Assembly (NCBI GenBank): GCA_949152475.1
Contig: OX424567.1
Location: 31,459,402-31,523,401, forward strand
DNA: 64,000 nt
Reading direction: 5' to 3'
Origin: Terebella lapidaria
Taxonomy: Eukaryota > Annelida > Polychaeta > Terebellida > Terebellidae
The notes below the pieces were generated by a model. That model was not told the origin of the DNA, searched no databases, and saw nothing but the letters and a program-made list of their open reading frames with translations. Positions 2,717 to 64,000 of this stretch are shown piece after piece. How positions within the stretch are numbered: position 1 is the stretch's first letter; every line of letters starts with the position of its first letter. A program made the translations under genes and the position numbers.

Positions 2717-3868
2717 CCAGCGACCATAGGTCGTAAGCTTGACGAAATGTTTTCTGAACTGATCCTGACCTTGACCTCTGAGATGTGACTCTGAAATTTT
2801 GCAGGTTATATTAGACAACATGTTATTTAGGCATATACATTCAGTCCAATACCTTAAAATTTGAGTTCACGATGTAGGTTTGAATGTTTGCTGGAATGTC
2901 GAAAAATTTATATTACCGGCCTTACGTTTATGACGTCATAGCGAAAAATCCATCATGGCGGAAAAGTCTCGGACAGCTCTCTCTCAAACCAGGATTCAAC
3001 GAGCTCTCCAGTGGTTCAATCCGCTTCTCTGTACGACAAATACTTTTCAATATATAGCTCCATTTTGAAAATTGACGTTATACGTCATGACGTCATTGAC
3101 GTTGCCTGTAGCGTGTTGAAACTCGGTATATGACTGGGTAATAATATGCCACATATGTTCTCATAATCACAGTCCAATACCTTCAAATTTGAGTGCACAG
3201 TGTATGTTTGAATGTTCGCTGAAAAGTCGAAAAATTGATATGACCGGCCTTACGTTTATGACGTCATAGCGAAAAATCTATCATGGCGGAAAAGTATCAG
3301 ACAGCACCCTCCTAAACCAGAATTCAACGAGCTTTCCAGTGGTGCAATCCGCTTCTCTGTACGACGAATACTTTTTGAGATATAGCCCCATTTCATAAAT
3401 TGACGTTTTTCGTCGTGACGTCATTGACGTTGGATAGATCCAAACAAAACTTCGCTGTGTGATGGACGATATCATCATTTATCGATGTGTAAAATTTCAG
3501 AGGTATCGGACTAAATATGACTCCTGTGTGAATTTTTGAAAATTCGCTAATGATGAGAGATAGGGATTTTTCGACTTTTTAGGAATTTTTGGTGACGTCA
3601 TCAATGAACCGATTTTTTTTCAAAAACGTGCAGTCCCGTAACAGGGCTGATAGCTGTACATCAAAGAAGTTTGGGGATGCTAGCGCAAAAATTGTGGACG
3701 CTAGAGTGCGAAAAGACAAAAGAGTAAAGCATGCAATTTTGCTTATGATGGGAGCGATTCTGTTATCATAAATATCTGGTGCATGCACAGGACCTTTGAT
3801 CGTGAGAGAAATTACTGCTAAAAACCGGGAATGGGGCCGGTTGCTATGCCGGTTCATCACCCCCAAAA
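2717..3868 (+). mobile_element. B1: 5' end of a composite B+A element (left edge of the outermost insertion)
   Basis: The block starts directly after CAAA of the A1 microsatellite, with CCAGCGACC. A 5' hairpin (CGACC ATA GGTCG, 2721-2733) is followed by CTTGACGAAAT (2738-2748), which matches the outer part of the 3' hairpin's right arm read in reverse complement. Two tandem 328-bp repeats follow (anchor ACGTTTATGACGTCATAGCG at 2924 and 3252). Next comes a terminal-like domain with GTGGACGCTAGAG at 3694-3706. It then runs without a break into the A unit near 3868. The A1 host does not resume inside the window, so this insertion is still open at 64000. No protein is encoded. Confidence 0.75.
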
Positions 3869-4461
3869 ATTCTGATATAAAGTGGCCTGTCGCTTGACCC
3901 AGAGTGTATTTAGACATGAGTTCTAGAGTTTATTATATCAGTTGGACACATTGCTTGAGATGTGCACTTGGAAACATATATGATGAACTGTAATACTATG
4001 CAACCGAGTGTGTATATTTAGAAGGGGACATGTCCACAGGGGATAATCGTTTCTACAGCTTATTGGCAAGTGAATTATCGGGTTGAGAATCAGATTCACC
4101 CCACTGCTCTTTCTACTTCGATATCTCGGCGAGTTTTCAAGTTATTCCAAATGTGAAAAGTGGACCATAAACTAGAAATAACACTGCAACTGACTGCAAG
4201 GAAATGCTTCAAAATTAATGTTCAGTAAATGTGTGAAAATTGGAGCCATGAAAACATAAAAAATATCTGTAAAATCCAAAAAACTCATAGGATTCTGATT
4301 AAGTTTTGTCAGATTATAGACAAAGTTCGAGGTCAATAATGGAATTGACATATTTATCTGATTGCCATACCCCTTCTAAATGACATGGTTCACATTTCAT
4401 GAGCCCACGATGATTCAAACGGATGCTATTACAGAAAACGTGTTTTTCTGGAATTTCGATG

Positions 4462-4780: not shown

Positions 4781-7700
4781 ACGGAAGATAGAACTCGAGT
4801 ATATCTACAATATGCACTTGATTTGAAGTCTCTACGACGATTAGAACTGGAGTTATGAGCACTTATGTGTTTTCGACGTTTTGCATGACCTTGACCTTGT
4901 TATTTTATCTTGAGCTTGACAAAGAATCTGGGACCTTCCTTTCTCATCCAGAAATCTTCCTACTAAATTTCATGAATTTCCAATGACAACTGTGGCCTGT
5001 AGAGCGCACACAAACAAACAAACAAACATACAAACAAACGGCACCGATCAACATACTTGACAAAATCTTTGATTTCGTCAAGTAATAATATCCGGTGCAT
5101 ATATACAAGCTATTGGGCCTTAGGCAATGCACTACATGTACTATGAACCTGTAACAGTGCTCACAGTGCTCACAAACCCGGTGCTCACAAACCCCTGTTC
5201 GTCACCCCCAAAAATTCTGATATAAAGTGGCCTGTCGCTTGACCCAGAGTGTATTTAGACATGAGTTCTAGAGTTTATTATATCAGTTGGACACATTGCT
5301 TGAGATGTGCACTTGGAAACATATATGATGAACTGTAATACTATGCAACCGAGTGTGTATATTTAGAAGGGGACATGTCCACAGGGGATAATCGTTTCTA
5401 CAGCTTATTGGCAAGTGAATTATCGGGTTGAGAATCAGATTCACCCCACTGCTCTTTCTACTTCGATATCTCGGCGAGTTTTCAAGTTATTCCAAATGTG
5501 AAAAGTGGACCATAAACTAGAAATAACACTGCAACTGACTGCAAGGAAATGCTTCAAAATTAATGTTCAGTAAATGTGTGAAAATTGGAGCCATGAAAAC
5601 ATAAAAAATATCTGTAAAATCCAAAAAACTCATAGGATTCTGATTAAGTTTTGTCAGATTATAGACAAAGTTCGAGGTCAATAATGGAATTGACATATTT
5701 ATCTGATTGCCATACCCCTTCTAAATGACATGGTTCACATTTCATGAGCCCACGATGATTCAAACGGATGCTATTACAGAAAACGTGTTTTTCTGGAATT
5801 TCGATGACCTTGACCTTGACCTTTGACTTTTGTACTTGAGTTCGTAGAGGTCAATGCTGTCAAAATGCATATTAAATTTCAAGGGATTCCATACACTATT
5901 GACGATGTTATGACCCTTTGAAATTTCGGATTATTGACGTTTAATACGTCACTGTGACGTCAGTTTACGTCGCAGCACCAAAAATGAGATATCACTGGAA
6001 TCAGGGCCTCAAGACCTTTCCAACGATATACTACTCGATATACTGCGCCGACCTTCGTATTTTGACCTTGACTTCGACCTCAGGCGAACTTCTCAAGGTC
6101 AAGGTCAAAGGTCAAGGTCAAGGTTACGGAAGATAGAACTCGAGTATATCTACAATATGCACTTGATTTGAAGTCTCTACGACGATTAGAACTGGAGTTA
6201 TGAGCACTTATGTGTTTTCGACGTTTTGCATGACCTTGACCTTGTTATTTTATCTTGAGCTTGACAAAGAATCTGGGACCTTCCTTTCTCATCCAGAAAT
6301 CTTCCTACTAAATTTCATGAATTTCCAATGACAACTGTGGCCTGTAGAGCGCACACAAACAAACAAACAAACATACAAACAAACGGCACCGATCAACATA
6401 CTTGACAAAATCTTTGATTTCGTCAAGTAATAATATCCGGTGCATATATACAAGCTATTGGGCCTTAGGCAATGCACTACATGTACTATGAACCTGTAAC
6501 AGTGCTCACAGTGCTCACAAACCCGGTGCTCACAAACCCCTGTTCGTCACCCCCAAAAATTTTGATATAAAGTGGCCTGTCGCTTGACCCAGAGTGTATT
6601 TAGACATGAGTTCTAGAGTTTATTATATCAGTTGGACACATTGCTTGAGATGTGCACTTGGAAACATATATGATGAACTGTAATACTATGCAACCGAGTG
6701 TGTATATTTAGAAGGGGACATGTCCACAGGGGATAATCGTTTCTACAGCTTATTGGCAAGTGAATTATCGGGTTGAGAATCAGATTCACCCCACTGCTCT
6801 TTCTACTTCGATATCTCGGCGAGTTTTCAAGTTATTCCAAATGTGAAAAGTGGACCATAAACTAGAAATAACACTGCAACTGACTGCAAGGAAATGCTTC
6901 AAAATTAATGTTCAGTAAATGTGTGAAAATTGGAGCCATGAAAACATAAAAAATATCTGTAAAATCCAAAAAACTCATAGGATTCTGATTAAGTTTTGTC
7001 AGATTATAGACAAAGTTCGAGGTCAATAATGGAATTGACATATTTATCTGATTGCCATACCCCTTCTAAATGACATGGTTCACATTTCATGAGCCCACGA
7101 TGATTCAAACGGATGCTATTACAGAAAACGTGTTTTTCTGGAATTTCGATGACCTTGACCTTGACCTTTGACTTTTGTACTTGAGTTCGTAGAGGTCAAT
7201 GCTGTCAAAATGCATATTAAATTTCAAGGGATTCCATACACTATTGACGATGTTATGACCCTTTGAAATTTCGGATTATTGACGTTTAATACGTCACTGT
7301 GACGTCAGTTTACGTCGCAGCACCAAAAATGAGATATCACTGGAATCAGGGCCTCAAGACCTTTCCAACGATATACTACTCGATATACTGCGCCGACCTT
7401 CGTATTTTGACCTTGACTTCGACCTCAGGCGAACTTCTCAAGGTCAAGGTCAAAGGTCAAGGTCAAGGTTACGGAAGATAGAACTCGAGTATATCTACAA
7501 TATGCACTTGATTTGAAGTCTCTACGACGATTAGAACTGGAGTTATGAGCACTTATGTGTTTTCGACGTTTTGCATGACCTTGACCTTGTTATTTTATCT
7601 TGAGCTTGACAAAGAATCTGGGACCTTCCTTTCTCATCCAGAAATCTTCCTACTAAATTTCATGAATTTCCAATGACAACTGTGGCCTGTAGAGCGCACA

Positions 7701-13092: not shown

Positions 13093-14569
13093 CCAGCGAC
13101 CATAGGTCGTAAGCTTGACGAAATGTTTACTGAACTGATCCTGACCTTAACCTCTGAGATGTGACCCTGAAATTTTGCAGGTTATATTAGACAACATGCT
13201 ATTTAGGCATAGACATTCAGTCCAATACCTCCAAATTTGAGTTCACGGTGTAGGTTTGAATGTTTGCTGGAATGTCGAAAAATTTATATGACCGGCCTTA
13301 CGTTTATGACGTCATAGCGAAAAATCTATCGTGGCGGAAAAGTCTCGGACAGCTCCCTCTCAAACCAGAATTCAACGAGCTCTCCAGTGGTTCAATCCGC
13401 TTCTCTGTACGACGAATACTTTTCAATATATAGCTCCATTTTGAAAATTGACGTTATACGTCATGACGTCATTGACGTTGCCCGTAGCGTGTTGAAACTC
13501 GGTATATGACTGGGTATTAATATGCCACATATAGTCTCATAATCACAGTCCAATACCTTCAACTTTGAGTGCACGGTGTAGGTTTGAATGTTTGCTGAAA
13601 TATCAAAAAATTTATATGACCGGCCTTACGTTTATGACGTCATAGCGAAAAATCTATTATAGCAGAAAAGTATCTAACAGCACCCTCCTAAACCAGAATT
13701 CAACGAGCTTTCCAGTGGTGTGATGCGCTTCTCTGTACGACGAATACTTTTCAATATATAGCTCCATTTTGAAAATTGACGTTTTACGTCATGACGTCAT
13801 TGACGTTGCACGTGGCATGTTGAAACTCGGTATATGACTGAGTAATAATATGCCACATATGTTCTCATAATCACAGTCCAATACCTTCAAATTTGAGTGC
13901 ACAGTGTAGGTTTGAATGTTCGCTGAAAAGTCGAAAAATTGATATGACCGGCCTTACGTTTATGACGTCATAGCGAAAAATCTATCATGGCGGAAAAGTT
14001 TCGGACAGCACCCTCCTAAACCAGAATTCAACGAGCTTTCCAGTGGTGCAATCCGCTTTTCAGTACGACGAATACTTTTTGAGATATAGCCCCATTTCAA
14101 AAATTGACGTTTTACGTCGTGACGTCATTGACGTTCGCAGGATCCAAACAAAACTTTGCGGTTTGATGGACGATATCATCATCTATCGATGTGTCAAATT
14201 TCAGAGGTATCGGACTAAATATGACTCCTGTGTGAATTTTTGAAAATTCGCTAATGATGAGAGATGGGGATTTTTCGAGTTTTAGGAATTTTTGGTGACG
14301 TCATCAATGAACCGATTTTTTTCAAAAACGTACATTGCCGTAACAAAGCTGATAGCTGTACATCAAAGAAGTTTGGGGATGCTAGCGCAAAAATTGTGGA
14401 CGCTAGAATGCGAAAAGACAAAAGAGTGAAGCATGCAATTTTGCTTATGATGGGAGCGATTCTGTTGTCATAAATATCTGGTGCATGCACAGGACCTTTG
14501 ATCGTGAGACAAATTACTGCTAAAAACCGGGAATGGGGCCGGTTGCTATGCCAATCCGTCATCCCCAAA
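13093..14569 (+). repeat. B2 block: three 328-bp tandem repeats plus terminal-like domain
   Basis: The anchor ACGTTTATGACGTCATAGCG falls at 13300, 13628 and 13956, each 328 bases apart although the units differ at many positions. The block closes with a domain carrying GTGGACGCTAGAATG near 14396. It then passes through an ATATCTGGTGCATG stretch into the A3 unit. Short open frames around 14043-14619 overlap each other on both strands and look like chance. Confidence 0.88.
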
Positions 14570-15881
14570 AGTTCTGATATAAAGTGGCCTGTCGCTTGAC
14601 ACAGAATGTATTTAGACATGAGTTTTAGACTTTATCATACCAGTTGGACACCTCTGAGTCAAAAAGCAAAAGAAATGTTGTTTGAGATGTGCACTTGGAT
14701 ACATATATGATATACTGTACTACTTCGCAACCGAGTGTGTATATTTAGAAGGGGACATGTCCACAGGGGGTAATCGTTTCTGCAGCTTATTGTTGTGTTA
14801 ACGGATTGAGAATCAGATTCACCCCACTGCTCTTTCTACTTTGATATCTCGGCGAGTTTTGAATTTATTCCAAATGTGAAAAGTGCATTATAAACTAGAA
14901 ATAACACTGCACCTGACTGTATGAAATGCTTCAGAATTGAATGTTCAGTAAATTTTTGAAAATTGGAGCCATGAAAACATTAAAAATATCTGTAAAGTCC
15001 AGAATCCTCATAAGATTCTGATTAAGCTTTGTCAGATTATAGACAAAATTCGAGGTCAATCATGGATTTGACATATTTGTCTGATTGATATACCTCTTCT
15101 GAATGACATGGTTCAAATTTCATGAGCCCACAATGATTCAAACAGATGTTATTACCGGAAACGTGTTTTTCTGGGATTTCGATGACCTTGACCTTGACCT
15201 TTGACCTTTGCACTTAAATTCGTAGAAGTCAATGCTGTCAAAGTGCATATCAAATTTCAAAGGATTCCATTCACTATTGACGGTGTTATGGCCCTTTGAA
15301 CGTTTATTTTGACGTTTATGACGTCATTATGACGTCAGTTTACGTCGCAGCGCCAAAAATGAGATATCGCTGGAATCAGGGGCTCGAGACCTTTCCAAAG
15401 ATATACTACTCGATATGCTGCGCCGACCTTCGTACTTGACCTTGACTTCGAGCTCAGGCGAACTTCTCAAGGTCAAGGTCAAAGTTCAAGGTCAAGGTTA
15501 CGGAAGATAGAACTCGAGTATATCTACAATATGCACTTGATTTGAAGTCTCTACGACGATTAGAACAAGAGTTGTGGCCACTTACGTGTTTTCATGACCT
15601 TGACCTTGTTATTTGACCTTGAGCTTAACAAAGAGGCTGGGACCTTCCTGTTTCAGCCTAAAACCTTTCTATCAAATTCCATGAATTTCCAATGAGAACT
15701 GTGGCCTGTAGAGCGCACACAAACAAACAAACATACAAACAAACGGAACCGATCAACATACTTGACAAAATCTTTGATTTCGTCAAGTAACAAACAAACG
15801 GAACCGATCAACATACTTGACAAAATCTTTGATTTCGTCAAGTAATAATATCCGGTGCATATATACAAGCTATTGGGCCTT
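14570..15881 (+). repeat. A3 unit with doubled hairpin
   Basis: This single A-type unit differs from A2, A4 and A5 at many positions, including about 9 bases of local change near 15300. Its tail carries two hairpins, at 15760-15788 and 15815-15843. The 55-bp spacing is one CAAA longer than the 51-bp version. No left edge of a nested insertion pairs with the extra hairpin. Confidence 0.85.
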
Positions 15882-18617
15882 AGGCAATGCACTACATGTA
15901 CTATAAACCTGTAACAGTGCTCATAGTACTCACAAACCCGGTGCTCACTAATCCCTGTTCGTCATTCCTAATAGTTTTGATATAAAGTGGCCTGTGGCTT
16001 GACCCAGACTGTATTTTGACATGCGTTTTAGGCTTTATTATATCAGTTGGACACCTCTGAGTTGGAAAACAAAAGAAATATTGTTTGAGATCTGCATTCG
16101 GATATATATATATATGATATACTATACTACTAAGCGACCGAGTGTGTATATTTAGAAGGGGACATGTCCACAGGGGGTAATCGTTTCTACAGCTTATTGT
16201 TGTGTGAACGGATTGAGAATCAGATTCACCCCACTGCTCTTTCTACTTTGATATCTCGGCGAGTTTTCAATTTATTCCAAATGTGAAAAGTGCATTATAA
16301 ACTAGAAATAACACTGCACCTGACTGTATGAAATGCTTCAGAATTGAATGTTCAGTAAATTTGTGAAAATTGGAGCCATGAAAACATTAAAAATATCTGT
16401 AAAATCCAGAATCCTCATAAGATTCTGATTAAGCTTTGTCAGATTATAGACAAAGTTCGAGGTCAATCATGGATTTGACATATTTGTCTGATTGATATAC
16501 CTCTTCTGAATGACATGGTTCAAATTTCATGAGCCCACAATGATTCAAACAGATGTTATTACCGGAAACGTGTTTTTCTGGGATTTCGATGACCTTGACC
16601 TTGACCTTTGACCTTTGCACTTAAATTCGTAGAAGTCAATGCTGTCAAAGTGCATATCAAATTTCAAGGGATTCCATACACTATTGACGATGTTATGGCC
16701 CTTTGAAATTTCGTATTTTTGACGTTTATGACGTCACTATGACGTCAGTTTACGTCGCAGCGCCAAAAATGAGTTATCACTGGAATCAGGGGCTCAAGAC
16801 CTTTCCAACGATATACTACTCGATATGGTGCACTGACCTTCGTACTTGACCTTGACATTTACCTCATGGCGAACTTCTCAAGGTCAAGGTCAAATGTCGA
16901 AGTCAAGGTTACAGAAGATGGAACTCGAGTATATCTACAATATGAACTTGGTTTGAAGTCTCTAGGACGATTAGAACTGAAGTTATGGCCACTTATGTGT
17001 TTTTAACGTTTTGCATGACCTTGACCTTGCTATTTGACCTTGAGCTTAACAAAGAGTCTGGGACCTTCCTTTTTCAGCCTAAAACCTTTGTACTAAATTT
17101 CATGAATTTCCAATGAGAACTGTGGCCTGTAGAGGGCACACAAACAAACAAACAAACAAACAAACAAACATACAAACAAACAAACGGAACCGATCAACAT
17201 ACTTGACAAAATCTTTGATTTCGTCAAGTAATAATATCCGGTGCATATATACAAGCTATTGGGCCTTAGGCAATGCACTACATGTACTATAAACCTGTAA
17301 CAGTGCTCATAGTACTCACAAACCCGGTGCTCACTAATCCCTGTTCGTCATTCCTAATAGTTTTGATATAAAGTGGCCTGTGGCTTGACCCAGACTGTAT
17401 TTTGACATGCGTTTTAGGCTTTATTATATCAGTTGGACACCTCTGAGTTGGAAAACAAAAGAAATATTGTTTGAGATCTGCATTCGGATATATATATATA
17501 TGATATACTATACTACTAAGCGACCGAGTGTGTATATTTAGAAGGGGACATGTCCACAGGGGGTAATCGTTTCTACAGCTTATTGTTGTGTGAACGGATT
17601 GAGAATCAGATTCACCCCACTGCTCTTTCTACTTTGATATCTCGGCGAGTTTTCAATTTATTCCAAATGTGAAAAGTGCATTATAAACTAGAAATAACAC
17701 TGCACCTGACTGTATGAAATGCTTCAGAATTGAATGTTCAGTAAATTTGTGAAAATTGGAGCCATGAAAACATTAAAAATATCTGTAAAATCCAGAATCC
17801 TCATAAGATTCTGATTAAGCTTTGTCAGATTATAGACAAAGTTCGAGGTCAATCATGGATTTGACATATTTGTCTGATTGATATACCTCTTCTGAATGAC
17901 ATGGTTCAAATTTCATGAGCCCACAATGATTCAAACAGATGTTATTACCGGAAACGTGTTTTTCTGGGATTTCGATGACCTTGACCTTGACCTTTGACCT
18001 TTGCACTTAAATTCGTAGAAGTCAATGCTGTCAAAGTGCATATCAAATTTCAAGGGATTCCATACACTATTGACGATGTTATGGCCCTTTGAAATTTCGT
18101 ATTTTTGACGTTTATGACGTCACTATGACGTCAGTTTACGTCGCAGCGCCAAAAATGAGTTATCACTGGAATCAGGGGCTCAAGACCTTTCCAACGATAT
18201 ACTACTCGATATGGTGCACTGACCTTCGTACTTGACCTTGACATTTACCTCATGGCGAACTTCTCAAGGTCAAGGTCAAATGTCGAAGTCAAGGTTACAG
18301 AAGATGGAACTCGAGTATATCTACAATATGAACTTGGTTTGAAGTCTCTAGGACGATTAGAACTGAAGTTATGGCCACTTATGTGTTTTTAACGTTTTGC
18401 ATGACCTTGACCTTGCTATTTGACCTTGAGCTTAACAAAGAGTCTGGGACCTTCCTTTTTCAGCCTAAAACCTTTGTACTAAATTTCATGAATTTCCAAT
18501 GAGAACTGTGGCCTGTAGAGGGCACACAAACAAACAAACAAACAAACAAACAAACATACAAACAAACAAACGGAACCGATCAACATACTTGACAAAATCT
18601 TTGATTTCGTCAAGTAA
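15882..18617 (+). repeat. A4 units (period 1386 bp), two copies
   Basis: The starts are at 15882 and 17268. By eye the two copies are essentially identical and share features absent from other sub-families: a TA-dinucleotide run near 16107 and 17493, and a long CAAA tract before the hairpin. The second copy ends with the G1 closing hairpin at 18587-18615. No coding content is seen. Confidence 0.88.
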
Positions 18618-21319: not shown

Positions 21320-22794
21320 CCAGCGACCATAGGTCGTAAGCTTGACGAAATGTTTACTGAACTGATCCTGACCTTGACCTCTGAGATGTGACTCTGAAAT
21401 TTTGCAGGTTATATTAGACAACGTGCTATTTAGGCATAGACATTCAGTCCAATACCTTCAAATTTGAGTTCACGGTGTAGGTTTGAATGTTTGCTGGAAT
21501 GTCGAAAAATTTATATGACCGGCCTTACGTTTATGACGTCATAGCGAAAAATCTATCATGGCGGAAAAGTCTCGGACAGCTCCCTCTCAAACCAGAATTC
21601 AACAAGCTCTCCAGTGGTTCAATCCGCTTCTCTGTACGACAAATACTTTTCAATATATAGCTCCATTCTGAAAATTGACGTTATACATCATGACGTCATT
21701 GACGTTGCCCGTAGCGTGTTGAAGCTTGGAATATGACTGGGTATTAATATGCCACATATAGTCTCATAATCATAGTCCAATACCTTCAAATTTGAGTGCA
21801 CGGTGTAGGTTTGAATGTTTGCTGAAATATCGAAAAATTTATATGACTGGCCTTACGTTTATGACGTCATAGCGAAAAATTTATTATAGCAGAAAAGTAT
21901 CTAACAAGACCGTCCTGAACCAGAATTCAACGAGCTTTCCAATGGTGTGATGCGCTCCTCTGTACGACGAATACTTTTCAATATATAGCTCCATTTTGAA
22001 AATTGACGTTTTACGTCATGACGTCATTGACGTTGCACGTGGCATGTTGAAACTCGGCATATGACTGGGTAATAATATGCCACATATGTTCTCATAATCA
22101 CAGTCCAATACCTTCAAATTTGAGTGCACAGTGTAATTTTAAATGTTCGCTGAAAAGTCGAAAAATTGATATGACCGGCCTTACGTTTATGACGTCATAG
22201 CGCAAAATCTATCATGGCGGAAAAGTATCGGACAGCACCATCCTAAACCAGAATTCAACGAGCTTTCCAGTGGTGCAATCCGCTTCTCTGTACGACGAAT
22301 ACCTTTTGAGATATAGCCCCATTTCAAAAATTGACGTTTTACGTCGTGACGTCATTGACGTTCGATGGATCCAAACAAAACTTCGCGGTTTGATGGAAGA
22401 TATCATCATTCATCGATGTGTCAAATTTCAGAGGTATCGAACTAAATATGACTCCTGTGTGAATTTTTGAAAATTCGCTAATGATGAGAGATAGGGATTT
22501 TTCGAGTTTTTAGGAATTTTTGGTGACGTCATCAATTAACCGATTTTTTTCAAAAACGTGCAGTGCCGTGACAGGGCTGATAGCTGTACATCAAAGAAGT
22601 TTGGGGATGCTAGCGCAAAAATTGTGGACGCTAGAGTGCGAAAAGACAAAAGAGTGAAGCATGGAATTTTGCTTATGATGGGAGCGATTCTGTTGTCATA
22701 AATATCTGGTGCATGCACAGGACCTTTGATCGTGAAAGAAATTACTGCTAAAAACCGGGAATGGGGCCGGTTGCTATGCCGGTTCGTCATGCCC
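21320..22794 (+). repeat. B3 block: three 328-bp tandem repeats plus terminal-like domain
   Basis: The anchors are at 21527, 21855 and 22183, all 328 apart. A terminal-like domain with GTGGACGCTAGAG lies at 22624, and the block passes into an A5 unit near 22795. It is close to B2, with scattered substitutions. The short open frames on both strands here are not credible genes. Confidence 0.88.
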
Positions 22795-24158
22795 AAAATT
22801 TCTGATATAAAGTGGCCTGTTGCTTGACCCAGACTGTATTTAGACATGAGTTTTAGACTTTATCATACCAGTTGGACACCTCTGAGTCAAAAAACAAAAG
22901 AAATGTTGTTTGAGATGTGCACTTGGATACATATATGATATACTGTACTACTTCGCAACCGAGTGTGTATATTTAGAAGGGGACATGTCCACAGGGGGTA
23001 ATCGTTTCTACAGCTTATTAGCATCTGAACGGATTGAGAATCAAATTCACCCCACTGCTCTTTCTACTTTGATATCTCGGCGAGTTTTCAAGTTATTCCA
23101 AATGTGAAAAGTGGACCATAAACTAGAAATAACACTGCAACTGACTGCAAGGAAATTCTTTAAAATTAATGTTCAGTAAATGTGTGAAAATTGGAGCCAT
23201 GAAAACATAAAAAATATCTGTAAAATCCCAAAAACTCATGGGATTCTGATTAAGTTTTGTCAGATTATAGACAAAGTTCGAGGTCAATCATGGAATTGAC
23301 ATATTTATCTGATTGCCATACCCCTTCTAAATGACATGGTTCAAATTTCATGAGCCCACGATGATTCAAACGGATGCTATTACAGAAAACGTGTTTTTCT
23401 GGGATTTCGATGACCTTGACCTTGACCTTTGACTTTTGTACTTGAGTTCGTAGAGGTCAATGCTGTCAAAATGCATATCAAATTTCAAGGGATTCCATAC
23501 ACTATTGACGATATTATGACCCTTTGAAATTTCGGATTATTGACGTTTAATACGTCATTGTGACGTCAGTTTACGTCGCAGCACCAAAAATGAGATATCA
23601 CTGGAATCAGGAGCTCAAGACCTTTCCAACGATATACTACTCGATATACTGCGCCGACCTTCGTATTTTGACCTTGACTTCGACCTCAACTTCTCAAGGT
23701 CAAGGTCAAAGGTCAAGGTCAAGGTCACGGAAGATAGAACTCGAACATATCTACAATATGCACTTGATTTGAAGTCTCTACGACGATTAGAACTGGAGTC
23801 ATGAGCACTTATGTGTTTTCGACGTTTTGCGTGACCTTGACCTTGTTATTTGACCTTGAGCTTGACAAAGAACTAGGAACCTTTCTTTTTCAGCCTAAAA
23901 CCTTTCTACCAAATTTCATGAATTTCCAATAAGAACTATGGCCTGTAGAGCGCACACAAACAAACAAACAAACATACAAACAAACGGAACCGATCAACAT
24001 ACTTGACAAAATCTTTGATTTCGTCAAGTAACAAACGGAACCGATCAACATACTTGACAAAATCTTTGATTTCGTCAAGTAACAAACGGAACCGATCAAC
24101 ATACTTGACAAAATCTTTGATTTCGTCAAGTAATAATATCTGGTGCATATATACAAGC
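22795..24158 (+). repeat. A5 unit ending in a triple hairpin
   Basis: This first A5-type unit carries three identical hairpins at 51-bp spacing (24001-24029, 24052-24080, 24103-24131), then the usual post-hairpin leader. It breaks off at CTATTG near 24158, where sequence from much further into a unit follows directly. Relative to other A5 copies it also lacks the GGCG within the CTCAGGCGAAC segment near 23688, as does the next unit. Confidence 0.85.
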
Positions 24159-24633
24159 TATTGACCTTCGTATTTTGACCTTGACTTCGACCTCAACTTC
24201 TCAAGGTCAAGGTCAAAGGTCAAGGTCAAGGTCACGGAAGATAGAACTCGAACATATCTACAATATGCACTTGATTTGAAGTCTCTACGACGATTAGAAC
24301 TGGAGTCATGAGCACTTATGTGTTTTTGTCGTTTTGCGTGACCTTGACCTTGTTATTTGACCTTGAGCTTAACAAAGAGTCTGGGACCTTCCTATTTCAG
24401 CCTAGAAAATTTCTACTAAATTTCATGAATTTCCAATGAGAACTGTGGCCTGTAGAGGGCACACAAACAAACAAACAAACAAACAAACATACAAACAAAC
24501 GGAACCGATCAACATACTTGACAAAATCTTTGATTTCGTCAAGTAACAAACGGAACCGATCAACATACTTGACAAAATCTTTGATTTCGTCAAGTAATAA
24601 TATCTGGTGCATATATACAAGCTATTGGGCCTT
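24159..24633 (+). repeat. Truncated A unit (internal deletion junction at about 24158)
   Basis: Post-hairpin sequence CTATTG joins straight to GACCTTCG, which normally lies about 900 bases later in the unit. The join shares only one or two bases. The 3' half resembles A7 rather than A5 (GTCGTTTTGCG, AGAGGGCACAC). It ends in a doubled hairpin at 24516-24544 and 24567-24595. It looks like a deletion or illegitimate recombination product and an A5/A7 chimera. Confidence 0.8.
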
Positions 24634-27278: not shown

Positions 27279-28649
27279 CGAGAGCCCCTAGGGCACCCAC
27301 TTGCCGGAACGCATACTCATGATATTTGACAGGTTTCAATGAATTTGAAATTTCCAACTGTATCCTATTCAATATGGTGCACTGATGTTTCCAACTGTAT
27401 CCTATTCAATATGGTGCACTGAACTTTGTACTCGACCTTGATATTGACTTGTGGCGAACCTCTCAAGGTCAAGGTCAAAGGTCACATTCAAGGTCACTCA
27501 TGAAAGGCCTTTTAATATGCCACAATATGGCCTTAGTTTGAACTCTCTGTGACGATTAGTTCCGAAATTATGGCCATCTATGTGATTTTGACCTTTCTCT
27601 TGACCTTGACCTCGACCTTTGACCTTGAGTCACGAAAATTGTGCATTGTTTGTGTATGAAGACATATATTTTACCTGTATAATTCCATCAGAATCGAACA
27701 AGGTTTGTGGACACTATGACCATTTGAAAGTTCGAAAAAATTACGTTTATGACGTCATTGTGACGTCAATAAACGTCACATCTCAAAACTGATGAGAAAG
27801 TATGTACCAGGGAGTCAAGACCTTTCATTTGATATACTACTTGATAGGTTTCAGTTAGTTTTGAAATTGGACCTTGAAGTTTTCCTCATATGACCTTATT
27901 TTCCTGACCAAGTTCAAGGTCAATCATGAAATTGACATATACGCTCGATTGCTATGTCTCTTCTGAATGATATGGTTCGAATTTCATGAACCTACAACAA
28001 TTCAAATGGATGTTTTTACCGGAAACGTGTTTTTCTGGGATTTCGATGACCTTGACCTTGACCTTTGACCTTTGTACTTTAGTTACTAGAGGTCATTACT
28101 GTCAATACGCACATCAAGTTTTAAGAGATTCCATACAGTATTGACGATGTTATGGCCTTTTGAAATTTCGGAAATTTGACGTTTATGACGTCATTGTGAC
28201 GTCAGTGTACGTCGCAGCGCCGAAAATAAGGTATCACTGCAATCAGGGGGCCAAGACCTTTCCAACGATATACTACTCGATATGATTCGCTGACCTTCGT
28301 ACTTGACCTTGACATTCACCTCATGGCGAACTTCTCAAGGTCAAAGTCAAATTTCAAGGTCAAGGCAACAGAAGATAGAACTCGAGTTTATCTACAATAT
28401 GAACTTAATTTGAAGTCTCTAGGACCATTAGAACCGAAGTTATGGCCACTTATGTGTTTTCGACGTTTTGCTTGACCTTGACCTTGACCTTTGACCTAGA
28501 CACTCCAAAATAGGACGTTTTTTGGTCATTATCCTAGAGATTATGCACACGAATTTTTGAAGAATTCAGTGAAGAATTGTGGACGCTAGAGCGCGCACAA
28601 ACAAACAAACGAGAGCCCCTAGGGCACCCACTTGCCGGAATGCATACTC

Positions 28650-31470
28650 ATGATACTTCTGTACGACTAATACTTTCCGATATATATAGCCCCATTTTGA
28701 AAATTGACGTTTTACGTCATGACGTCATTTATGTTGCATGTAGCGTGTCGAACCTCGGTATATGGCTGGGTATTAATATTCCGCATACGTGTTCACAAAT
28801 ACAGTCCAATATCTTCAAATTTGAGTGCACTGTAGCTGTTTGAAAGTTTGTTAAAAAGTCGAAAATTTGGTATGACAGGCGTTACGTTTATGACGTCATA
28901 GCGGAAAATCTATCATGGCGGAAAAGTATCGGACAGTACTCTCCTAAACCAGAATTCAACGAGCTTTCCAATGGTGCAATCCGCTTTTCTTAACGACAAA
29001 TACTTTACGATATATAGCCCCATTTGCGAAATTGACGTTTGACGTCATGACGTCATTGTCGTTGTGCGTAACGTCTTGAAACTCAATATATTGCTGGGTA
29101 ATAATATTCCACGTATGTCCTCATGATTACGGTCAAATTACTTCAAATTTGAAAACACTGTGGATGTTTGAAAGTTTCCTGAAAAGTCGAAAATTTGGTA
29201 TGACAGGCTTTACGTTTATGACGTCATAGCGGAAAATCTATCATGGCGGAAAAGTATCGGACAGTACTCTCCTAAACCAGAATTCAACGAGCTTTCCAAT
29301 GGTGCACTTCGCTTCTCTGTACGACAAATACTTTTTGATATATAGCCCCATTTTCAAAAGTGACGTTTTACGTCATGACGTCATTGACGTTGCACGTAGC
29401 GTGTTGAAACTTGGCATGTGACGGGGTATTATTATTTCACATACTTTCTGATAATTACAGTTCAATATCTTCAAATCCGAGTGCACTGTGGATGTTTGGA
29501 TGTTTGCTGAAAAGTCGAAAAATTGTTATGACAGGCCTTACGTTTATGACGTCATAGCGGAAAATCTATCATGGCGGAAAAGTATCGGACAGCACCCTTC
29601 TAAACCAGAATTCAACGAGCTTTCCAATGGTGCAATTCGCTTCTCTGTACGACAAAAACTTTTTGATATATAGCCCCATTTTCAAAAGTGACGTTTTACG
29701 TCATGACGTCATTGACGTTGCACGTAGCGTGTTGAAACTTGTTATGTGACGGGGTATTATTATTTCACATACTTTCTGATAATTACAGTTCAATATCTTC
29801 AAATTTGAGTGCACTGTGGATGTTTGGATGTTTGCTGAAAAGTCGAAAAATTGTTATGACAGGCCTTACGTTTATGACGTCATAGCGGAAAATCTATCAT
29901 GGCGGAAAAGTATCGGACAGCACCCTTCTAAACCAGAATTCAACGAGCTTCCCAGTGGTGCAATCCGCTTCTCTGTACGACGAATACTTTTTGATATATA
30001 GCCCCATTTTAAAAATTGACGTTTTACGTCATGACGTCATCAACGTTGCACGTAGCGTGTTGAAACTTTTTAGGTGGCTGGGTAATATTATTTCACACAT
30101 GTTCTGATAATTACAGTCCAATATCTTCAAATTTGAGTGCACTGTGGATGTTTGGATGTTTGCTGAAAAGTCGAAAAATTGTTATGACAGGCCTTACGTT
30201 TATGACGTCATAGCGGAAAATCTATCATGGCGGAAAGGTATCGGACAGCACCCTTCTAAACCAGAATTCAACGAGCTTCCCAGTGGTGCAATCCGCTTCT
30301 CTGTACGACGAATACTTTTTGATATATAGCCCCATTTTAAAAATTGACGTTTTACGTCATGACGTCATCAACGTTGCACCTAGCGTGTTGAAACTTTTTA
30401 GGTGGCTGGGTAATATTATTTCACACATGTTCTGATAATTACAGTCCAATATCTTCAAATTTGAGTGCACTGTGGATGTTTGAAAGTTTGCTGAAAAGTC
30501 GAAAAATTGGTATGACAGGCCTTACGTTTATGACGTCATAGCGGAAAATCTATCAAGGCGGAAAAGTATCGGACAGCATCCTCCTAAACCAGAATTCAAC
30601 GAGCTTTCCAGTGGTGCAATCCGCTTCTCTGTACGACGAATACTTTTTGATATATAGCCCCATTTTCAAAATTGACGTTTTACGTCATGACGTCATCAAC
30701 GTTGCACGTAGCGTATTGAAACTTTTCACGTGGCTGGGTAATATTATTTCACACAGGTTCTGATAATTACATTCCAATCCCTTTAAATTTGAGTGCACTG
30801 TGGATGTTTGAAAGTTTGCTGAAAAGTCGAAAATTTGGAATGACAGGCCTTACGTTTATTACGTCATAGCGGAAAATCTATCATGGCGGAAAAGTATCAG
30901 AGAATACTCTCCTAAACCAGAATTCAACGAGCTTTCCAATGGTGCAATTCGCTTCTCTGTACGACAAATACTTTTTGATATATAGCACCATTTCGAAATT
31001 TGACGTTTTACGTCATGACGTCATTGACGTTGCACCTAACGCGTTGAAACTTGGCATATGGCTGCGCATCATTATTCCACATACGTTCTGATAATTACAG
31101 TCCAATACCTCCAAATTTGAGTGCACTGTGGATGTTTGAAAGTTTGCTGAAAAGTCGAAAATTTGGTATGACAGCCCTTACGTTTATGACGTCATAGCGG
31201 AAAATCTATCATGGCGGAAAAGTATCGGATAGTACTCTCCTAAACTAGAATTCAACGAGCTTTCCAATGGTGCAACTCGCTTCTCTGTACGTCAAATACT
31301 TTTTGATATATAGCCCCATTTCAAAAAATCACGTTTCACGTCGTGACGTCATTGACGTTCGAATAATCCGAGTAAAACTTCGCAGTATGATGGATAATAT
31401 TACCATATATCGGTGTGCTAAATTTCAGAGGTATCGGTTCAAATGTGACTGCTGTGTGAATTTTTGAAAA
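28650..31470 (+). repeat. 328-bp tandem array inside D (about 8.6 copies)
   Basis: Anchors for ACGTTTATGACGTCATAGCG-type sequence fall at 28883, 29212, 29540, 29868, 30196, 30524, 30852 and 31180. The spacing is 328, with one of 329. Neighbouring copies differ at many positions, yet length is held almost constant. Each copy has two TGACGTCA palindromes and a CATGGCGGAAAAG segment. The 61-codon open frames at 29488, 29816 and 30144 recur with the repeat and are not conserved in the other copies. Confidence 0.92.
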
Positions 31471-31719
31471 TTCGCCAATGATGAGAGATAGGGATTTTTC
31501 GATTTTTCAATGATTTTTGGTGACGTCATCAATTGACCGATTTCTTCCAAAAAGGGAGGTTCAGGTCCGACAACAGGTATCTATCCATCAAAAAAATTTC
31601 GGAATGATAGCTCGAAAATTGTGGACGTTAATCCGCGCACAAACAAACAAATGAAATCGCTCGCTGCTGCTGACTTGACGGCTGAAAGCCTTCGCTGGTA
31701 CAGCGAGTACTTGCCAGAA

Positions 31720-35310: not shown

Positions 35311-35363
35311 TGTAAACAAACAAACAAACACACAAACAAACACATCCACGAACAGACCAACAT

Positions 35364-35573
35364 ACTTGCCAAAATCGAAGATTCTGGCAAGTAACAAACA
35401 CACACATCCATCCACAAACCAACCGACCAAGATACTTGCCGGAATTTAAATTCCGGCAAGTAACAAACACACACACAAATCCACAAACCAACATACTTGC
35501 CGGAATTTAAATTCCGGCAAGTAACAAACGGAACCGATCAACATACTTGACAAAATCTTTGATTTCGTCAAGT
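35364..35573 (+). repeat. Stack of four closing hairpins (E, D, C, A5 host)
   Basis: Hairpins at 35364-35392, 35434-35461, 35495-35522 and 35545-35573 follow one another, each separated by AAC plus a CAAA/CACA/CATCCA-rich linker. The arms are ACTTGCCAAAATC, ACTTGCCGGAATTT (twice, perfect palindromes) and ACTTGACAAAATC. The order is the reverse of the left edges seen at 31652 (E), 28610 (D) and 27279 (C) and of the interrupted A5 unit. Confidence 0.88.
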
Positions 35574-54598: not shown

Positions 54599-54628
54599 AA
54601 ATCGGCCATAGGCCAACACTTGACGAAA

Positions 54629-55449
54629 ATCTACACATTTGTTTACATTCAAAACATTTACTCATTATTTACACATTTATGGCATCCCCTGACAACATAT
54701 AGCATTGGAAACTGAACCATTTGAAACATCTAGTTTGCGTATGTATCAACATAATATATTACCTCTAACCATGCTAACGGCACAAAATTTTGATGATGCC
54801 ACTACTAAAAAACCTAAAATATATCAAAATTACAAAAATCCAAAAACAAATATCGATAGCCTAAAAATGAGCGAATAACAAACAGCAAATATTCCCGCAC
54901 AAATATGAAATTTCATTGACAACAAGTAAACAAAACAAATAGGCTTAGGCATGTGGCGATTGCACAGCCCTAAAATATGACCTAATAATTGCTTGTCTTC
55001 TTTTTATCAATGTTTTTTATATTAACAAACAGTTGTAATTAGGTCATATTTTAAGGCTATGAAGAACGGAGTTAACACAAACGCGTTATGACAAAAACAT
55101 GCATCGCTCGATCATAATGAAACCAATGAGACCCTGTAAAATGACACGATACAGTGTTTAATCTGGGCCATTCGCCATGCAACTTACCAGACCCCCAATC
55201 CCACATGCATCATATGAAGCAGACATATCATCTGGTACACGCCTTTTGTCATGCATTTGTTAGCAGCTAATACCACAGGTCATTCACAGTTGTGGCCGTA
55301 ATGCTGAATTTAAAGCGGCTTGTAACTTTAAATATAAAGAACAAACTAGATTTTGATGATACCACTAGAAAGCCCGATAAAATAGTTTGTCACTGTTCGT
55401 GGAACAGTGTTTTTTCCTTCAAAGGTGATCATTATAATTCGAAACAATA
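54629..55449. other. AT-rich non-satellite DNA inside F
   Basis: This stretch lacks the TGACCT, TGACGTCA and CAAA signatures of the surrounding units and is not repeated elsewhere in the window. It contains the inverted repeat at 54966-55058. I see no convincing open frame or RNA gene. It may be host DNA captured by the element or an older mobile sequence. Confidence 0.6.
54966..55058. repeat. Inverted repeat, possible small MITE remnant
   Basis: Arms 54966-54986 and 55038-55058 (21 bases each) are reverse complements at 20 positions, with a 51-base spacer. The arm begins AGCCCTAAAATATGACC. It could be a tiny inverted-repeat element or a stem-loop. No target duplication is evident. Confidence 0.55.
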
Positions 55450-55625
55450 GAATTACATATAAAGCATGGCAGGTTTGGGATGCTTACAAGACCACTCAGA
55501 AACAGAAAAAGTCATTTGGAATTGAATTTTAGAAGAAAAAAAAATATCAGTCAACGGTGAGAATCGAACCACTGACCCCTCGCACACATACCTAAAGCCT
55601 CTACTGACTGCGCCATTCTGTTCAT
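55450..55625 (-). mobile_element. tRNA-derived SINE-like sequence (minus strand)
   Basis: On the minus strand, TGGCGCAGTCAGTAG (55615-55601) fits a pol III A box and GGTTCGATTC (55570-55561) fits a B box, about 30 bases apart as in tRNAs. A run of nine T follows (55544-55536), then about 85 bases of unrelated body. The cloverleaf does not close properly, because the T-stem and D-stem are mispaired. It is therefore a tRNA-derived SINE head or decayed tRNA rather than a working tRNA. The overlapping minus-strand open frame at 55453-55683 is read through this sequence and is not a gene. Confidence 0.55.
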
Positions 55626-55744
55626 TGAAACTCAACACGTGTAAAGTATAGTGCGTAGGAGAGACTTCGCTCAGGATAAACACTGAATTATGCCATGGCT
55701 GTACATTGGACTGGCAGCGTGCAGAATTCGATCGGGAAAACTCG

Positions 55745-56715
55745 TGACCTTGAGTTCTACAACTTCACAATCTTATTCTGCGTGATCAGGCACAACTCCT
55801 GAGTAAAATCCGGCAATATATATTGGAGCCTGGCTCTATAATGTGGTTTTGTATATTGTGAGACAGGAAAAACCTAAATTCATGACCCCCAAATTTTCGA
55901 CCTGGACCGAAAATCCAGAGTTTTGGTCATACGACCATCGGACATGTATCATATGATGCGGATTTGACCATAGAAAAATACAAAAATAATCAGAAAAAAT
56001 AATCATGATTACAAGCGGAGTTATCACGATTTTTCAATTTTGACCTTTACTATGACCTTAACTGTAATTCTTGACCTTGAGCCCTATAACTTCACAGTCA
56101 TGTTCTGCGTGAGAAGGCACAACTCCTGAGTAAAAATCAGAAACATATATTGGAACCTCGCTCTACAATAGGGTTTTGAAAATTGAGACAAGCAAGACCT
56201 AAGTTCATGACCCCCAAATTTTCGACCTGGACCGAAAATCCAGAGTTTAGGTCATACGACCATCAGACATGCATCATGTGATGCGGAATTGACCATAGAA
56301 AAATATAAAAATACACAGAAAAAATAATCTTGATTAGAAGCGGAGTTATCACGATTTTTCGATTTTGACCTTTACTATGACCTTAACTCTAATCCTTGAC
56401 CCTGAGCTCTGAAACTTCAGGATCTTGTTCTGCGTGATAAGGCACAACTCCTGAGTAAAAATCAGCAACATATATTGGAACCTGGCTCTATAATATGATT
56501 TTGAATATTGTGAGACAGGAAAAACCTAAATTCTTGACCCCCAAATTTTCGACCTGGACCGAAAATCGGGAATTTTGGTCGTACGACCATCGGACATGCA
56601 TCAGATGATGCAGAATTGACCATAGAGAAATATATAAATACCCAGAAAAAATAATCTCAATTAGAAGCGAAGTTATTGCGATTTTTCGATTTTGACCTTT
56701 TCTATGACCTTGACC
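55745..56715 (+). repeat. Three-copy 326-bp tandem repeat in F
   Basis: TTCTGCGTGA anchors fall at 55776, 56103 and 56428 (spacing 327 and 325). Each copy includes GGCACAACTCCTGAGTAAAA, an ATATATTGGA stretch, CCCCCAAATTTTCGACCTGG and a closing TGACCTT run. The copies have diverged noticeably. Apart from the TGACCT runs I see no similarity to the 328-bp B repeat, though its length is almost the same. Confidence 0.9.
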
Positions 56716-56894
56716 TCAATTTTTGACCTTGACCTCCTTAAAGTTTACCACTTGGTCCGAAATTGATTGTCTACCTTCTGGTGAAGCTTCATGACGATAC
56801 GACCAAAATTGTGACCTGTAGAGTGCACACAAACAAACAAACAGATAAACTCAACTGACCAACATACTTGACGAAATTTAATTTCGTCAAGTAA

Positions 56895-59800: not shown

Positions 59801-62800
59801 GTATTTAGACATGAGTTCTAGAGTTTATTATATCAGTTGGACACATTGCTTGAGATGTGCACTTGGAAACATATATGATGAACTGTAATACTATGCAACC
59901 GAGTGTGTATATTTAGAAGGGGACATGTCCACAGGGGATAATCGTTTCTACAGCTTATTGGCAAGTGAATTATCGGGTTGAGAATCAGATTCACCCCACT
60001 GCTCTTTCTACTTCGATATCTCGGCGAGTTTTCAAGTTATTCCAAATGTGAAAAGTGGACCATAAACTAGAAATAACACTGCAACTGACTGCAAGGAAAT
60101 GCTTCAAAATTAATGTTCAGTAAATGTGTGAAAATTGGAGCCATGAAAACATAAAAAATATCTGTAAAATCCAAAAAACTCATAGGATTCTGATTAAGTT
60201 TTGTCAGATTATAGACAAAGTTCGAGGTCAATAATGGAATTGACATATTTATCTGATTGCCATACCCCTTCTAAATGACATGGTTCACATTTCATGAGCC
60301 CACGATGATTCAAACGGATGCTATTACAGAAAACGTGTTTTTCTGGAATTTCGATGACCTTGACCTTGACCTTTGACTTTTGTACTTGAGTTCGTAGAGG
60401 TCAATGCTGTCAAAATGCATATTAAATTTCAAGGGATTCCATACACTATTGACGATGTTATGACCCTTTGAAATTTCGGATTATTGACGTTTAATACGTC
60501 ACTGTGACGTCAGTTTACGTCGCAGCACCAAAAATGAGATATCACTGGAATCAGGGCCTCAAGACCTTTCCAACGATATACTACTCGATATACTGCGCCG
60601 ACCTTCGTATTTTGACCTTGACTTCGACCTCAGGCGAACTTCTCAAGGTCAAGGTCAAAGGTCAAGGTCAAGGTTACGGAAGATAGAACTCGAGTATATC
60701 TACAATATGCACTTGATTTGAAGTCTCTACGACGATTAGAACTGGAGTTATGAGCACTTATGTGTTTTCGACGTTTTGCATGACCTTGACCTTGTTATTT
60801 TATCTTGAGCTTGACAAAGAATCTGGGACCTTCCTTTCTCATCCAGAAATCTTCCTACTAAATTTCATGAATTTCCAATGACAACTGTGGCCTGTAGAGC
60901 GCACACAAACAAACAAACAAACATACAAACAAACGGCACCGATCAACATACTTGACAAAATCTTTGATTTCGTCAAGTAATAATATCCGGTGCATATATA
61001 CAAGCTATTGGGCCTTAGGCAATGCACTACATGTACTATGAACCTGTAACAGTGCTCACAGTGCTCACAAACCCGGTGCTCACAAACCCCTGTTCGTCAC
61101 CCCCAAAAATTCTGATATAAAGTGGCCTGTCGCTTGACCCAGAGTGTATTTAGACATGAGTTCTAGAGTTTATTATATCAGTTGGACACATTGCTTGAGA
61201 TGTGCACTTGGAAACATATATGATGAACTGTAATACTATGCAACTGAGTGTGTATATTTAGAAGGGGACATGTCCACAGGGGATAATCGTTTCTACAGCT
61301 TATTGGCAAGTGAATTATCGGGTTGAGAATCAGATTCACCCCACTGCTCTTTCTACTTCGATATCTCGGCGAGTTTTCAAGTTATTCCAAATGTGAAAAG
61401 TGGACCATAAACTAGAAATAACACTGCAACTGACTGCAAGGAAATGCTTCAAAATTAATGTTCAGTAAATGTGTGAAAATTGGAGCCATGAAAACATAAA
61501 AAATATCTGTAAAATCCAAAAAACTCATAGGATTCTGATTAAGTTTTGTCAGATTATAGACAAAGTTCGAGGTCAATAATGGAATTGACATATTTATCTG
61601 ATTGCCATACCCCTTCTAAATGACATGGTTCACATTTCATGAGCCCACGATGATTCAAACGGATGCTATTACAGAAAACGTGTTTTTCTGGAATTTCGAT
61701 GACCTTGACCTTGACCTTTGACTTTTGTACTTGAGTTCGTAGAGGTCAATGCTGTCAAAATGCATATTAAATTTCAAGGGATTCCATACACTATTGACGA
61801 TGTTATGACCCTTTGAAATTTCGGATTATTGACGTTTAATACGTCACTGTGACGTCAGTTTACGTCGCAGCACCAAAAATGAGATATCACTGGAATCAGG
61901 GCCTCAAGACCTTTCCAACGATATACTACTCGATATACTGCGCCGACCTTCGTATTTTGACCTTGACTTCGACCTCAGGCGAACTTCTCAAGGTCAAGGT
62001 CAAAGGTCAAGGTCAAGGTTACGGAAGATAGAACTCGAGTATATCTACAATATGCACTTGATTTGAAGTCTCTACGATGATTAGAACTGGAGTTATGAGC
62101 ACTTATGTGTTTTCGACGTTTTGCATGACCTTGACCTTGTTATTTTATCTTGAGCTTGACAAAGAATCTGGGACCTTCCTTTCTCATCCAGAAATCTTCC
62201 TACTAAATTTCATGAATTTCCAATGACAACTGTGGCCTGTAGAGCGCACACAAACAAACAAACAAACATACAAACAAACGGCACCGATCAACATACTTGA
62301 CAAAATCTTTGATTTCGTCAAGTAATAATATCCGGTGCATATATACAAGCTATTGGGCCTTAGGCAATGCACTACATGTACTATGAACCTGTAACAGTGC
62401 TCACAGTGCTCACAAACCCGGTGCTCACAAACCCCTGTTCGTCACCCCCAAAAATTCTGATATAAAGTGGCCTGTCGCTTGACCCAGAGTGTATTTAGAC
62501 ATGAGTTCTAGAGTTTATTATATCAGTTGGACACATTGCTTGAGATGTGCACTTGGAAACATATATGATGAACTGTAATACTATGCAACCGAGTGTGTAT
62601 ATTTAGAAGGGGACATGTCCACAGGGGATAATCGTTTCTACAGCTTATTGGCAAGTGAATTATCGGGTTGAGAATCAGATTCACCCCACTGCTCTTTCTA
62701 CTTCGATATCTCGGCGAGTTTTCAAGTTATTCCAAATGTGAAAAGTGGACCATAAACTAGAAATAACACTGCAACTGACTGCAAGGAAATGCTTCAAAAT

Positions 62801-64000
62801 TAATGTTCAGTAAATGTGTGAAAATTGGAGCCATGAAAACATAAAAAATATCTGTAAAATCCAAAAAACTCATAGGATTCTGATTAAGTTTTGTCAGATT
62901 ATAGACAAAGTTCGAGGTCAATAATGGAATTGACATATTTATCTGATTGCCATACCCCTTCTAAATGACATGGTTCACATTTCATGAGCCCACGATGATT
63001 CAAACGGATGCTATTACAGAAAACGTGTTTTTCTGGAATTTCGATGACCTTGACCTTGACCTTTGACTTTTGTACTTGAGTTCGTAGAGGTCAATGCTGT
63101 CAAAATGCATATTAAATTTCAAGGGATTCCATACACTATTGACGATGTTATGACCCTTTGAAATTTCGGATTATTGACGTTTAATACGTCACTGTGACGT
63201 CAGTTTACGTCGCAGCACCAAAAATGAGATATCACTGGAATCAGGGCCTCAAGACCTTTCCAACGATATACTACTCGATATACTGCGCCGACCTTCGTAT
63301 TTTGACCTTGACTTCGACCTCAGGCGAACTTCTCAAGGTCAAGGTCAAAGGTCAAGGTCAAGGTTACGGAAGATAGAACTCGAGTATATCTACAATATGC
63401 ACTTGATTTGAAGTCTCTACGACGATTAGAACTGGAGTTATGAGCACTTATGTGTTTTCGACGTTTTGCATGACCTTGACCTTGTTATTTTATCTTGAGC
63501 TTGACAAAGAATCTGGGACCTTCCTTTCTCATCCAGAAATCTTCCTACTAAATTTCATGAATTTCCAATGACAACTGTGGCCTGTAGAGCGCACACAAAC
63601 AAACAAACAAACATACAAACAAACGGCACCGATCAACATACTTGACAAAATCTTTGATTTCGTCAAGTAATAATATCCGGTGCATATATACAAGCTATTG
63701 GGCCTTAGGCAATGCACTACATGTACTATGAACCTGTAACAGTGCTCACAGTGCTCACAAACCCGGTGCTCACAAACCCCTGTTCGTCACCCCCAAAAAT
63801 TCTGATATAAAGTGGCCTGTCGCTTGACCCAGAGTGTATTTAGACATGAGTTCTAGAGTTTATTATATCAGTTGGACACATTGCTTGAGATGTGCACTTG
63901 GAAACATATATGATGAACTGTAATACTATGCAACCGAGTGTGTATATTTAGAAGGGGACATGTCCACAGGGGATAATCGTTTCTACAGCTTATTGGCAAG
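56895..64000 (+). repeat. A2 satellite array, part 4 (runs off the window)
   Basis: The resumed A2 tail with host hairpin 56915-56943 is followed by starts at 56982, 58327, 59672, 61017, 62362 and 63707, all 1345 apart. The last is partial. Differences noticed are T at 61245 and T at 62078 where other copies have C. With the earlier parts this makes about 19 A2 copies in the window. Confidence 0.94.

Follow-up and report, generated by a model that had tools for sequence, protein, structure and literature searches.

Repeat arrays that resemble a satellite fill much of a 64-kb window of the genome of the annelid Terebella lapidaria (C14:31459402-31523401; assembly 761.6 Mb). The unit of this satellite is the hairpin-bearing end of one transposon family, repeated in tandem, and copies of the same element class lie nested inside it. 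The first-pass annotation of the window had treated the satellite merely as the host of nested insertions; instead, host and guest belong to one class of element. In the reading that we favour on balance, these elements are Helentrons, which are rolling-circle transposons bearing an endonuclease, and their non-autonomous derivatives, with the hairpin as 5′ origin and a palindrome as 3′ terminator, and with copying that runs from an outer origin to the first terminator. We analysed 134 kb, comprising the window with 20 kb to its left and 50 kb to its right, and compared it with 30 kb of another chromosome (C1:38544001-38574000). Strands of the arrays and inserts described below follow the proposed 5′ to 3′ direction.

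The nested, in-register insertion described by the first-pass annotation was borne out when seven inserts were removed in silico, as all seven interrupted units healed, with 0-7 edits per ~1345-1390 bases. Taking insert length as the distance between the flanking hairpins minus one period reproduced the sizes previously claimed for the inserts G1 (5525 nt), G2 (27899 nt), C-D-E (8246 nt) and F (2296 nt), and their healed units differed from an intact neighbour by 0, 1, 5 and 0 edits, respectively. Three further in-register inserts behaved in the same way: H (1395 nt; 7 edits, six of them a single 6-bp deletion), R (28490 nt; 2 edits), which bears a RepHel gene, and the large element A1, itself an insert of 98909 nt within an outer array, X (7 edits). 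Interrupted units had been said to resume at the very base where they stopped. This holds to within 3-4 nt but not to the exact base, since joining the two sides requires 3-4 nt to be trimmed. The nucleotides common to both insert edges are AAC, or AAAA in F, and a duplication of 3-4 nt is indistinguishable from edges that share sequence. AAC is probably the element's own end, because AAAC precedes all 12 palindromic ends checked (the first 12 of 99, on C1 and C2), two of which lie outside any microsatellite.

Landing followed a single pattern throughout the 134 kb: one orientation, an (ACAA)n tract, a position 51-79 nt from a hairpin's outer end in another copy, and no target duplication beyond the 3-4 nt common to both edges. 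A representative tract (5009-5039, unstranded) reads (ACAA)n ... CATACA^AACAAACGG and lies 51 nt from the hairpin's outer end. Of the seven right-hand remnants, five measure 51 nt and the others 63 and 79 nt, in units of ~1345 nt; under uniform placement such clustering would have a probability of ~1e-10, a figure worked out after the fact. Exact 51-nt landing sites number 1115, comprising 674 in intact context, 231 after a hairpin end and 210 in other contexts, where insertions in reversed orientation may be present. The absence of target duplication is a known signature of Helitrons and Helentrons (PMC4067079, PMC7492417). Exact register is thus expected, as Helentrons insert without duplicating the target, in this case landing in the (ACAA)n tract close to the hairpin of another copy, and the interrupted repeats resume where they stopped because elements repeatedly landed at the same spot inside one another. 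Elements also stand side by side at window coordinates -13094, -10031, -6669, 106168 and 107912, where the next palindrome begins 11-20 nt past a hairpin end; these are repeated landings in one tract.

Nesting of this kind might also arise from collapsed or mis-joined repeats in the assembly, given that array units are up to 100% identical. However, all seven breakpoints lie in one short tract and the healed units are exact or nearly so, which is unlike random mis-joins, and the same kinds of junction occur on another chromosome, making an assembly artefact very unlikely. The latter result comes from running the edge and hairpin parser beyond the window, on the 30 kb of C1 only, where the junction kinds recurred but with one exception, an element with two palindromic ends and one hairpin, and with one opener overlooked.

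The depth of five or six levels claimed earlier proved to be six, in the order X > A1 > G2 > C > D > E, all on the minus strand. X occupies 1-2717 of the window, opening at -6661 and closing near 106030, and has a 1441-bp unit made of 1390 bp and a 51-nt stub, with two hairpins per unit. An array on another chromosome (C4:28820636-28839421) has 14 stub junctions spaced 1445 bp apart, and its unit likewise already holds the 51-nt stub. A1 lies in register in X, spanning 2718-64000 and continuing to 101623, with one palindromic end, 24 hairpins and 23 complete 1345-bp units. Its palindromic-end segment (2718-3848, minus strand), the proposed 3′ end, consists of the palindrome CGACCATAGGTCG and the subterminal inverted repeat CTTGACGAAAT, after which two partial copies of a 328-bp-type repeat were recognised by eye.

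A1 hosts several inserts on the same strand. G1 (13094-18615) has one palindromic end, four hairpins (15788, 15843, 17229 and 18615) and two identical 1386-bp units. G2 (21321-49216) has one palindromic end of its own and 16 hairpins, distributed over two arrays, of 1366-bp and of 1899-bp units, and a shortened unit, all chained by 51- and 63-nt stubs. Within a 1366-bp unit of G2 lies C (27280-35522), of the ACTTGCC family; C contains D (28611-35461), with 8.2 copies of a 328-bp repeat, and D contains E (31652-35392; start taken from the target tract, about ±5 nt). F (54600-56892; start ±4 nt) has the perfect hairpin ACTTGACGAAATTTAATTTCGTCAAGT and 325-bp repeats within it. Tandem repeats of 325-328 bp were located at 28658-31359 (D), 13218-14135 (G1), 21445-22362 (G2) and 55745-56736 (F). 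At 24131-24544 a unit has been cut down to 413 bp, with a junction word that is unique in the assembly.

The elements share one design of ends: a palindrome beside a subterminal inverted repeat on one side and, on the other, a hairpin made up of that repeat. On the minus strand, the parts run from ACTTGACGAAATC-AAA-GATTTTGTCAAGT through a short spacer and the microsatellite (TTGT)n to the inverted repeat ATTTCGTCAAG and, last, the palindrome CGACCTATGGTCG. A representative terminal hairpin (5055-5083, minus strand) has a 13-bp stem, and its exact sequence occurs 40 times in the window, always on the same strand. For the small palindrome by itself, folding was not clearly stronger than for shuffled sequences (z -0.2 to -1.9). 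Subterminal inverted repeats with palindromes are the ends expected of Helentrons, and the target agrees as well, since insertion is at TT without duplication; plus-strand AA follows all 75 hairpins of the 134-kb scan. Canonical Helitrons begin with 5′-TC, end with CTRR-3′, have a hairpin a few nt from the 3′ end and insert at AT. An assignment to this group was rejected, as here the hairpin is terminal, the edges are AAC.../...CAAGT and the target is A^A.

The same features bear on whether an ordinary satellite, amplified by unequal exchange, was simply struck by unrelated transposons. The arrays are homogeneous within and ~5-22% apart between one another, as satellites are. Against this, unit and insert have the hairpin class, the end design and the target in common, and X, A1, G1 and G2 each bear the unit's sequence as their own end; we therefore regard an ordinary satellite as extremely unlikely.

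Coding capacity likewise points to Helentrons. At least 150 RepHel matches, combining Rep and PIF1 helicase as Helentrons do, were found genome-wide, many in frames of ~2300 codons. R, which lies beside the window and entered A1 at the site also used by F and G2, contains a 1999-codon open reading frame (ORF) with DUF6570, OTU, Helitron_like_N and PIF1 domains, followed by an Exo_endo_phos ORF, with one in-frame stop between them. A palindromic end of the family found in the window also lies on C4, 2.9 kb from where an uninterrupted ORF of 2295 codons ends; the last 1722 codons of this ORF encode OTU, Rep, PIF1 and Exo_endo_phos. An AP-type endonuclease thus lies C-terminal to RepHel, in the same ORF on C4 and as a separate ORF in R. 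The set OTU/Rep/PIF1/Exo_endo_phos is that of Helentrons (PMC4067079). R also carries a 758-codon minus-strand ORF (window coordinate 74393-76666) that encodes a DDE_1 transposase domain and matches PHD weakly, representing either a cut-and-paste transposon or a captured gene, and a 399-codon plus-strand ORF (95237-96433) with a reverse transcriptase domain (RVT_1) near R's hairpin end.

Hairpins outnumber palindromic ends both in the window and genome-wide. The first-pass annotation had parsed the window as balanced, but its brackets do not match: there are 12 closers, in which a hairpin is followed by a target remnant, and only 7 palindromic openers, and a balanced parse was rejected. The window has 44 hairpins, 32 before the array junction AATAATATC and 12 before a target remnant. 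In the 134 kb, a scan of the plus strand found 75 hairpins, with up to 1 mismatch tolerated per hairpin, and 18 palindromic ends; the four minus-strand palindromes, from three places, are ones already counted, seen in reverse. Openers and closers number 1 and 2 in G1, whereas G2 has 1 opener of its own and 5 closers. Hairpins number 15 in X, 24 in A1, 4 in G1 and 16 in G2, and one each in C, D, E, F, H and R; none of these ten elements was found to have a second palindromic end of its own.

Genome-wide, counting exact patterns only, the main family has 1135 hairpins, 774 hairpin right arms joined to the array junction and 99 palindromic ends. Palindromic ends were recognised as a palindrome with a 3-nt loop adjoining a CTTGAC/CTTGCC repeat, and their counts are lower bounds, the finder having overlooked one CTTGGC-family opener on C1. 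Among 51 pairs of neighbouring exact palindromic ends separated by less than 200 kb, 50 have both ends on the same strand. At C1:57297970-57358391, one exact palindromic end is followed by 38 same-strand matches to hairpin plus array junction, with spacings of mostly 1344 or 1359 bp; this is apparently another such element, 60 kb long. A simple copy, with one palindromic end and one hairpin 2.68 kb apart, is present at C1:1915710-1918388.

Several features suggest that the hairpin is the 5′ origin, on the window's minus strand, and the palindrome the 3′ terminator. Read in this direction, the end anatomy equals that of the Helentron derivatives HINE and Cg_HINE, and exact hairpins outnumber exact palindromic ends by 1135 to 99. 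The main hairpin folds fully on the minus strand, where it has one G.T pair that becomes an A.C mismatch on the plus strand; five of the ten hairpin types in the 134 kb are imperfect, and all five show this odd pair as G.T on the minus and A.C on the plus strand. Of 150 scored RepHel matches, 5 lie no more than 12 kb inside one of the 99 family palindromic ends, and all five read towards that end. Published arrays with several 5′ ends and one 3′ end also favour a 5′ hairpin (PMC12628747, PMC7492417).

Other observations weigh against this polarity. Where RepHel lies farther inside a family palindromic end, at 12-30 kb, it shares the strand of that end in 6 of 6 pairs, as it does in all pairs outside such ends, and the 12-kb limit was our own choice. 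These pairs may represent R-like neighbours that landed in a common orientation, but those at 12-30 kb led us to lower our confidence slightly. The RepHel of R itself reads from palindrome to hairpin, although a reversed RepHel has a precedent in one Drosophila family, Helentron-Da-40 (PMC4067079). In canonical Helitrons, the hairpin is at the 3′ end. On C1, the exceptional element combines a single hairpin with two palindromic ends and two near-identical bodies; passing or doubling can therefore affect the palindrome side too. For the RepHel element on C4, no hairpin was found within 18 kb upstream, leaving its 5′ end unseen. Hairpin counts are non-independent owing to array growth, and common descent may link the imperfect hairpin types.

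Were the polarity reversed, with the palindromic end as 5′ start and the hairpin as 3′ terminator, G1 and G2 would have formed by repeated terminator bypass, a process described for Helitrons (PMC5148889, PMC6431247). The direction of RepHel in R, the six pairs at 12-30 kb and the C1 element with two palindromic ends would all fit. Yet, barring later growth of its arrays, G2 could only have arisen if 15 intact terminators were bypassed. In addition, full pairing of the imperfect hairpins is limited to the minus strand, the opposite direction is seen in the 5 RepHel genes closest to family ends on their inner side, and the HINE anatomy matches the other orientation. We consider this polarity unlikely and retain the hairpin as the putative 5′ origin.

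With a 5′ hairpin, copying would start at any upstream origin, ignore further origins and halt at the first terminator. A nested copy running from an outer origin to the first terminator would then have many hairpins and one palindrome, as in G1 and G2, where chains of hairpins, some joined by stubs of 51, 55 or 63 nt, follow a single palindromic end. The stubs look like landing-site remnants, and chained in this way they would record the nest of origin. Copying of this kind, from outer origin to first terminator, has been modelled for Fusarium elements (PMC5148889).

In-place nesting followed by deletion between heads would predict the same picture. Here ordinary insertions with one palindrome and one hairpin, of either polarity, would have lost their extra palindromic ends by recombination between heads, which are direct repeats. 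Undeleted nests would give palindromic ends spaced as observed, 2632-2730 bp apart in 7 of the 9 pairs closer than 3.5 kb. Moreover, private markers of G1 and G2 searched across the assembly matched only in the window (2 matches, both in G1, and 1 in G2), so no donor was found to support movement of either in one piece, a point against the composite copying that we favour. Conversely, in-place formation requires about four separate clean deletions for G2 and one for G1. Units of G2 also differ from one another more than those of the surrounding array (15 differences in 16312 bases, 9.2e-4, vs 8 in 30929, 2.6e-4, for A1; p = 0.0026), although this is not significant without the edge units (p = 0.12). 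Since G2 lies inside A1 and its units nevertheless differ more, it may have come as a ready-made array. Taken together, we judge in-place formation somewhat unlikely.

The arrays themselves would arise by repeated copying of a circle that has lost its terminator or by unequal exchange. The 23 complete units of A1 (30.9 kb) have just six substitution columns and one 6-bp deletion, and the units of X are more diverged, with a mean identity of 99.07%. G1, G2, F, H and R arrived after the A1 array had formed, as each occupies one unit only. Array growth was local, since the five array types compared differ from each other by ~5-22%. Every unit comprises an origin and a landing site, and the locus is therefore able to grow inward.

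Many of these traits have precedents. Helentrons and HINEs of the DINE-1 group have a RepHel with AP-type endonuclease, subterminal inverted repeats and palindromes, and they insert between T's, with variable terminal T's and an unchanged target (PMC4067079); the differences here are that hairpin ends have multiplied into arrays and that the preferred target is another copy's end. Cg_HINE of the Pacific oyster (PMC7492417) has the same order of parts (5′ subterminal inverted repeat, complementary inverted repeat, microsatellite, 3′ subterminal inverted repeat, palindrome), a microsatellite mostly of 4-nt units, tandem repeats, and a TT target without duplication, but its arrays consist of short internal repeats of 100-500 bp, whereas here the whole 1.3-1.9-kb hairpin end is repeated. 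Among plant tandem Helitron arrays (Xiong et al. 2016, via PMC12628747 and PMC7492417), many have multiple 5′ ends and a single 3′ end. The corresponding arrangement here is many hairpins with one palindromic end, the hairpin being the proposed 5′ end; those arrays are plant Helitrons, and the passages describing them do not mention six-deep in-register nesting. Composite FoHeli elements of Fusarium similarly have several 5′ termini and one 3′ terminus, explained by self-insertion, but their duplicated 5′ pieces are typically short (<200 bp) and the account given there describes no long arrays (PMC5148889), compared with chains of 4-16 ends here.

The first-pass annotation knew of no described locus with such regular self-nesting. 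Helitrons or Helentrons have previously been described with TT targets, microsatellites and internal tandem repeats, as well as with self-insertion and arrays of truncated copies (PMC4067079, PMC5148889, PMC7492417, PMC12628747), including tandem arrays and nested or multi-5′-end copies (PMC5148889, PMC12628747, PMC7492417), and one review reports "shuffled" Helitron loci in oyster, with elements within elements. In the literature that we searched, and we make no claim for all print, we found no description of a satellite of Helentron hairpin ends that hosts its own kind six deep.

Helentron transposition is not settled biochemically, and such studies have been called for (PMC4067079). The excess of one end and the strand on which the hairpin pairs constitute a natural record of polarity that is testable in other genomes. 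The locus unites two routes from transposon to satellite, tandem copying of one end and self-targeted insertion, and is young enough to be read base by base. A bolder reading, which we hold to be less likely than not, is that the stacking of origins is a selfish device, in which each unit is both replication origin and landing site and nests of at least 20 kb move whole, with the single palindrome alone terminating copying. If so, arrays would make their own copying, and further hits on themselves, more probable, and loci would grow inward unaided, their history written as chained 51-nt stubs.

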